Shown one piece after another: positions 22,195 to 38,057 of a DNA stretch of 50,612 nucleotides. A model generated the notes under the pieces. The model saw only the letters and a list, made by a program, of their open reading frames with translations, was not told the DNA's origin and did not search any database. Each line of letters starts with the position of its first letter. Position 1 is the first letter of the stretch. The stretch comes from Rhizobium sp. Q54 (GTDB lineage Bacteria > Pseudomonadota > Alphaproteobacteria > Rhizobiales > Xanthobacteraceae). Position numbers and translations under genes: made by a program. The stretch lies in the NCBI GenBank assembly GCA_945861265.1, contig CAMAUC010000018.1, positions 1-50,612 on the forward strand. The letters are read 5' to 3'.

Positions 22195-22208
22195 TTGATT
22201 TCCATCAA
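22195..22208. promoter_or_regulatory. Perfect FNR/FixK-type box upstream of hemA
   Basis: TTGAT (22195-22199), TTCC, ATCAA (22204-22208) matches the Crp/FNR-family consensus TTGAT-N4-ATCAA in all ten defined positions. It lies about 100 bases upstream of the hemA start and just after the Nudix stop. In rhizobia and Rhodobacter hemA and other haem genes respond to low oxygen through FNR/FixK proteins, so oxygen-dependent control of hemA is likely. Confidence 0.75.
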
Positions 22209-22306: not shown

Positions 22307-23536
22307 ATGAATTACAATGACTTCTTCGTATCGGCGCTGGATAAATTGCGCGACGAGCGCAGATATCGCGTTTTCGCCGATCTCGAGCGCATCGCCGGCC
22401 GGTTCCCGCACGCGCACTGGCACTCGCCCGAGGGCAAGCGCGACGTCGTCATCTGGTGTTCCAACGATTATCTCGGCATGGCCTAGCACCCGCAGGTGAT
22501 CGGCGCCATGGTCGACGTCGCCGCCCGCATGGGCACCGGCGCCGGCGGCACCCGCAACATCGCCGGCACCAACCATCCCCTGGTCGAGCTGGAGCGCGAG
22601 CTCGCCGACCTGCATGGCAAGGAAGCCGCGCTGCTGTTCACCTCGGGTTACGTGTCCAACCAGACCGGCATCCCGACCATCGCCAAGCTGCTGCCGAACT
22701 GCCTGATCCTTTCGGATGCGCTCAACCACAATTCGATGATCGAAGGCGTTCGGCAGGCGGGCTGCGACAAGCAGCTCTGGCGGCACAACGACGTCGCGCA
22801 TCTTGAGGAACTGCTCAAAGCCGCCGATCCCGCGCGGCCGAAGCTGATCATCTTCGAGAGCCTCTATTCGATGGATGGCGACATCGCGCCGATCCACGCC
22901 ATTTGCGATCTCGCCGATAAATATAACGCGATGACCTATGTCGACGAAGTGCACGCGGTCGGCATGTACGGCCCGCGCGGCGGCGGCGTCACCGAGCGCG
23001 ACAATGCGGCGCATCGCATCGACGTCATCGAGGGCACCTTGGCCAAGGCGTTCGGCTGCCTCGGCGGCTATATCACCGGCAGCAACGAATTGATCGACGC
23101 GGTGCGCTCCTACGCGCCGGGCTTCATCTTCACCACGGCGCTGCCGCCGGCGATCTGCGCCGCCGCGACCGCCGCGATCCGCCATCTCAAGACGTCGCAA
23201 TGGGAGCGCGAACGCCATCAGGATCGCGCCGCGCGCGTCAAAGCCGTGCTCAATGCCGCGGGCCTGCCGGTGATGCCGTCATCGACACATATCGTGCCGT
23301 TGCTGATCGGCGATGCCGAGAAGTGCAAGCAGGCGAGCGACATGCTGCTCGCCGACCACGGCATCTATATCCAGCCGATCAACTATCCGACCGTGCCGCG
23401 CGGCGAAGAGCGGCTGCGCATCACGCCGTCGCCCTATCACGACGACGTGCTGATCGACCAACTCGCCGAAGCGCTGGTCGATGTCTGGGAACGGCTGCAA
23501 CTGCCGAAGCGGCGCCAGCAACTGGCGGCGGAGTAA
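22307..23536 (+). pseudogene. hemA: 5-aminolevulinate synthase hemA, interrupted by an in-frame TAG at codon 60
   Basis: HemA condenses glycine and succinyl-CoA (PLP enzyme, C4 pathway) in the first step of haem synthesis. Reading from the ATG at 22307 gives 59 residues ending [10 protein letters not shown], then TAG (22484-22486). The same frame continues unbroken for 349 more residues with all later signatures: [38 protein letters not shown], and the PLP lysine K247 in [12 protein letters not shown]. Homologues have Gln here (GMGQHP), so the change looks like CAG to TAG. The distal part alone would lack Arg21 and the SNDYLG asparagine needed for substrate binding. A GTG at 22496 could restart but has no ribosome site. 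Everything else (length, box, codon use) looks like a functional gene, so it is a very recent mutation, a sequence error or a suppressed codon. Confidence 0.9.
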
Positions 23537-37419: not shown

Positions 37420-37602
37420 TGTCATCGTCCTCCGCTTGGCCCCAAAAATACAGTTTAGCACCGGCGCGGGCCGGGCTGAACCCGGACGGCATAGGCGCCG
37501 GTTCGCGATCATGCCGCAGTGCACGCAACCGGCTTTTGGCGACCCGCCAAAATTCTCTGTTTAGTCCTTGATTTCAAATACTTAGGCGAACCGCCCCCTT
37601 CC

Positions 37603-37631
37603 TTGACTCCGCGAGTCCCGATCAGTATGGT
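37603..37631 (+). promoter_or_regulatory. Promoter of the Fo ATP synthase operon
   Basis: TTGACT (37603-37608), exactly 17 bases, TATGGT (37626-37631): a good sigma-70 promoter about 60 bases before the atpI start. The spacer overlaps a small palindrome GACTC-CGC-GAGTC (37605-37617) that could be an operator or a start-region structure. Confidence 0.55.
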
Positions 37632-37691
37632 CCGCGCGGCGTTTAGGGCGGCGGGACTAGAACGGGGCCTCAAACTACGCGAGTCGAAAGC

Positions 37692-38057
37692 ATGGCTGAC
37701 GACAAGCGCGGGCAAGGCAATCGCACAGAACCACCGGCCGACGAGGCTGCTCTCTCCGCGAGGCTCCAACGTCTCGGCGACCGGCTCGCAGATGCGAACC
37801 GAATTCCCGAAAACGAGGCCGCTTCTCGCGCAGGCGCCGATGCGTCGGCGTACGCACGCGGTTTCCGCATGTCGACCGAACTGGTCGCCGGCGTGCTGGT
37901 GGGGGCGATTATCGGCTGGCTTCTCGATCGCTGGCTCGGTATTTCGCCGTGGGGGCTCATTGTTTTTCTGTTGCTCGGCTTCGCGGCCGGTGTTCTCAAC
38001 GTGATGCGGGCGGCGGGTGTCGTTCGCGACCAGTCCGACCGCCTAGAGCCGAAATAG
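37692..38057 (+). CDS. atpI: ATP synthase accessory protein AtpI (AtpZ/AtpI family)
   Basis: A 121-residue protein with a long polar N-terminus (about 60 residues) and two membrane helices ([20 protein letters not shown] and [18 protein letters not shown]) connected by the conserved GISPW turn. AtpI assists c-ring assembly or Mg2+ supply in the Fo operon. It is the first gene of the operon, 16 bases before atpB. Confidence 0.9.

Follow-up and report, generated by a model that had tools for sequence, protein, structure and literature searches.

An in-frame amber codon in an otherwise intact alphaproteobacterial hemA gene of a draft genome

The 5-aminolevulinate (ALA) synthase HemA of alphaproteobacteria is represented by the family model TIGR01821 and by the solved enzymes 7x98 and 2bwn. 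Arginine 21 (Arg21) and the asparagine (Asn) of the SNDYLG motif are taken here to be substrate-binding residues. PMC4999443 describes FnrN/FixK sites, with their consensus, in the region upstream of alphaproteobacterial hemA genes. The hemA gene considered here lies in a stretch of 50,612 nucleotides (the window), contig 18 of a draft genome that comprises 133 contigs and 3,754,185 bases (estimated completeness 95.7%, estimated contamination 0.27%). The relatives of this genome and its being a draft suggest that it is probably metagenome-assembled. The frame runs on the forward strand from an ATG at 22307 to a TAA at 23534-23536 (22307..23536; 409 codons), is 98% identical over its full length to the intact gene of the nearest relative, and is complete but for a TAG that occupies codon 60 (22484..22486, forward strand); an earlier first-pass annotation, which had reported this amber codon in an otherwise intact hemA, is thereby confirmed. 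The stop is best read as a recent, private, single-codon difference in an otherwise working gene, most likely a wrong consensus base or the base of a minority strain (probability roughly 0.8).

The part of the frame that follows the TAG scores 582.3 bits against the TIGR01821 profile, above the curated cut-off of 338.55. The alignment with 7x98 is free of gaps over residues 1-401; in that with 2bwn, a single residue is inserted near residue 42, but the alignment is unbroken at codon 60. Because both alignments continue unbroken around this codon, the change is a substitution with no frameshift, as had been claimed, and larger damage is ruled out as well. The residue expected from homologues is indeed Gln; however, the motif originally given for the site, GMGQHP, does not hold for the closest relatives, which have GMAQHP. 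The Ala preceding the stop is thus normal for this group, and a single codon is unusual. Both Arg21 and the SNDYLG asparagine (Asn53 in the present frame, aligned with Asn54 of 2bwn) lie 5' of the TAG, so that the locus does not offer one uninterrupted 5-aminolevulinate synthase frame and the fragment beyond the stop lacks both residues, as predicted. This fragment corresponds to an open frame of 346 amino acids that starts at GTG 22496 (22496..23536, forward strand). As the GTG is in frame and is only the fourth codon past the stop, translation might restart there, with both fragments, or the C-terminal one alone, remaining active; however, the product would be deprived of residues 1-63, including Arg21 and the SNDYLG Asn, and no obvious Shine-Dalgarno sequence precedes the GTG by eye, which makes such a restart extremely unlikely.

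Codon 60 was compared across 110 hemA loci (L040-L149, the present one included): CAG is found in 97, CAA in 11, CGG in one (L144), and TAG in the present gene. Six pairs of these loci represent one gene seen twice, and merging them leaves 103 distinct other sequences, which encode Gln at the site in 102 cases and Arg in one. The stop is absent from all 103 and is private within the compared set. A search for ALA synthase in 60 genomes, again including the source genome, gave a match in every one. In G015 (90% complete), the match is at the level of a paralogue only, and G031 (99% complete) shows only pieces of hemA; because these pieces sit at contig ends, it is the assembly that cuts the G031 gene. 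A TGA was flagged in the G043 match, yet its translation has no mid-gene stop, and the apparent gaps in the G034 gene are unresolved bases. In an order-wide search, 281 of 297 genomes matched at 1e-90, and the only stop-bearing hemA genes among the matches listed are the present one and a 65%-identical copy in G147, a genome that also has a stop-free copy. The nearest named hemA records are those of Pseudolabrys, other Hyphomicrobiales metagenome-assembled genomes, and Bradyrhizobium. When hemA was searched against plasmids, 76 records matched, none of them spanning 80% of the query.

Outside codon 60, purifying selection on the gene is strong. With that codon omitted, dN/dS relative to the two closest relatives (L041 and L042) is 0.056 and 0.057, respectively; the synonymous differences number 72 and 73.5, and the nonsynonymous ones 15 and 15.5. 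Moreover, at the columns that are invariant in seven distinct relatives, the present gene departs at codon 60 only; eight rows entered this comparison, two of which (L045 and L070) are the identical gene, and L048, L050, and L071, for which no gene was obtained, stand outside it. The low dN/dS and the single change of its own at invariant columns rule out an old pseudogene. Upstream of the gene, an FNR/FixK-like palindrome, TTGATTTCCATCAA (22195..22208, forward strand), has the form TTGA-N6-TCAA, which is kept in seven of eight aligned relatives (L045 lacks it), and this putative box is intact. From the low dN/dS, the single departure at invariant columns, and the kept upstream box, we infer that hemA either is still functional or was so until very recently. 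A real TAG would mean a very young null allele.

Three ways out had been offered by the first-pass annotation, namely a read or assembly error, a second hemA or C5 route, and suppression of TAG; the first is supported here and the other two are not. Protein and DNA searches of the whole draft genome did not find a second ALA synthase. The other ALA synthase-like protein match has 37-38% identity, resembles the paralogue-level matches of the relatives, and is presumably of the BioF/KBL type; DNA matches to hemA elsewhere in the genome consist of one 50-nt and one 26-nt piece. In the genome search for the C5 enzymes, the best match to the glutamyl-tRNA reductase model reaches 27.5 bits (cut-off 209.55) and the best match to the GSA aminomutase model 156.7 bits (cut-off 527.3); with both enzymes far under their cut-offs, the C5 pathway is not assigned to this genome. 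Since only one ALA synthase copy and no C5 enzyme above cut-off were found, loss of HemA would be expected from known pathways to be lethal without external ALA or heme. Such a supply forms the core of an alternative in which the TAG is a genuine, fixed mutation of the strain, and neighbours or a host feed a cell that is auxotrophic for ALA or heme. The hemB gene is present and free of stops, so imported ALA would be usable, no other route to ALA was found, and G015, from the same genus, likewise shows no ALA synthase, at 90% completeness. However, the stop is the only sign of decay in the gene, which would require a very recent loss, and a stop-free hemA is kept in most of the related genomes searched; we therefore regard auxotrophy as quite unlikely.

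Alternatively, a second, intact ALA synthase might have escaped assembly, the stop-bearing copy being a fresh pseudogene. A second full-length copy exists in three of the 36 same-genus genomes, the source genome included among the 36 (G014, G023, and G026), a few carry extra partial copies, and a piece of the hemA tail is found elsewhere in the source genome (see below). Against this stand the estimated completeness of the genome, in which one full ALA synthase was found, as in most genomes of the genus, and the lack of decay in the present copy, which render a hidden second gene very unlikely.

Pieces of the 3' end of hemA recur in several places. On another contig of the source genome, a relic of about 57 nt, stop codon included (L184:1501-1557; G000:C1:142105-142161), is 94% identical to the hemA tail over 50 nt and 91% identical over 57 nt. 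It lies inside the initial portion of a mechanically defined frame on the reverse strand, which we take to encode an L-lactate-dehydrogenase-like FMN enzyme. In G032, a direct repeat of the end of a full-length hemA, 95% identical over 74 nt, lies 999 nt downstream of the 3' end itself (L054:2658-2731 and L054:3657-3730), and in G031 two copies of the tail are located at contig ends. Together, the relic, the G032 repeat, and the G031 tail copies hint that duplication or integration may have occurred repeatedly at the 3' end of hemA.

Suppression of TAG has to be weighed against the termination and tRNA apparatus of the genome. Release factor RF1 is present (prfA, 480.3 bits against a cut-off of 423.25; G000:C6), and TAG terminates 90 of 394 long non-overlapping, mechanically defined open reading frames in the window and a 400-kb sample of the genome. 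ARAGORN made 37 calls, two of which are repeats on overlapping loci; among the resulting 35 tRNA genes, an incomplete set that misses Tyr, Ile, Gln-TTG, and Glu-TTC species, none has a CTA anticodon, and the sole Gln tRNA found has the anticodon CTG. A loose CTA-tRNA pattern gave 15 matches (11 forward, four reverse), fewer than the 14 and 16 of its backwards control, and ARAGORN recognises no CTA tRNA at these matches.

Other broken genes were sought with a six-model hexamer method in the window and 400 kb of the genome, in which stops with coding-like flanks are flagged; it replaced a scan based on codon usage, which was dropped as it was swamped by antisense shadow open reading frames. Among 3782 isolated stops examined, 34 were flagged, 11 of them TAG (two in the window and nine outside). 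The flagged stops were judged by eye, with seven of the nine outside TAGs read out, and those other than hemA seem to be either non-coding or the ends of genes that have a further gene behind them. On held-out genes, the scan flagged 1000 of 1988 CAG positions. Thus, at a sensitivity of about 50%, no mid-gene TAG other than that of hemA is recognised in the window and 400 kb, with one ambiguous case (L171:2645), and the further in-frame TAGs in core genes that the annotation had proposed to look for are not recognised in this sample. Similarly, frame coordinates for the part of the window that is matched by contigs of the two nearest relatives reveal no stop in a matched gene besides hemA; the query frames that do contain stops are, by their coordinates, shadow or antisense frames. 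An apparent frame change relative to G024 at 37519-38054 of the window breaks no gene, being 5' of ATG 37692 of an intact 121-amino-acid frame.

Of the marks of a reassigned sense codon, loss of RF1 is not seen in the genome, nor is an abundance of in-frame TAGs recognised in the window and the 400-kb sample. Partial reading of the TAG by a suppressor tRNA or by near-cognate decoding, yielding some full-length HemA, would agree with the otherwise intact gene, and the missing Tyr, Ile, Gln-TTG, and Glu-TTC species leave room for an unassembled suppressor. However, RF1 scores above its cut-off, the Gln tRNA found reads CTG, a CTA tRNA is seen neither among the 35 genes nor at the 15 pattern matches, TAG is a common end of the long mechanical frames, and no second mid-gene TAG is recognised in the sample. 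Read-through is therefore very unlikely, to much the same degree as an unassembled second copy. Taken more broadly, a real stop that reflects either recent ALA auxotrophy or low-level read-through by an unassembled suppressor tRNA is unlikely.

An erroneous or minority base in the consensus remains the best supported of the three options, because the gene shows no decay, the stop is private to it, a single copy was found, and the genome is a draft. A wrong consensus base, or one contributed by a minority strain, would have placed the TAG in the assembled hemA, and if so, the living population would make full-length HemA. The comparisons show that the stop is private in the compared set and that the rest of the gene is under purifying selection, and the searches found no other route to ALA; an error or minority base, as opposed to a fixed mutation, is inferred from these. 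Two observations count against it: no comparable break within a gene is recognised in 400 kb by a scan that recovers about half of them, so that the assembly is not visibly error-ridden, and an intact hemA is not found in every genome of the genus (G015 and G031). None of the results requires a new mechanism. The locus serves mainly as a caution that an essential gene may look broken through one base of a draft assembly; a genuine stop, by contrast, would suggest that an alphaproteobacterium relies on ALA cross-feeding or amber suppression.

Compared with natural amber suppression and TAG reassignment, the present case is alike in that a conserved gene has TAG where the relatives have a sense codon. 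It differs in that RF1 is present, no CTA tRNA was found in the incomplete tRNA set, TAG is a common terminator, and a single occurrence is recognised. The closer likeness is to alphaproteobacterial HemA as represented by TIGR01821, 7x98, and 2bwn, with which the gene shares family, length, and order of motifs. Its neighbouring genes are likewise matched in the contigs of the nearest relatives, and the sole difference from these proteins is the one in-frame TAG at codon 60.
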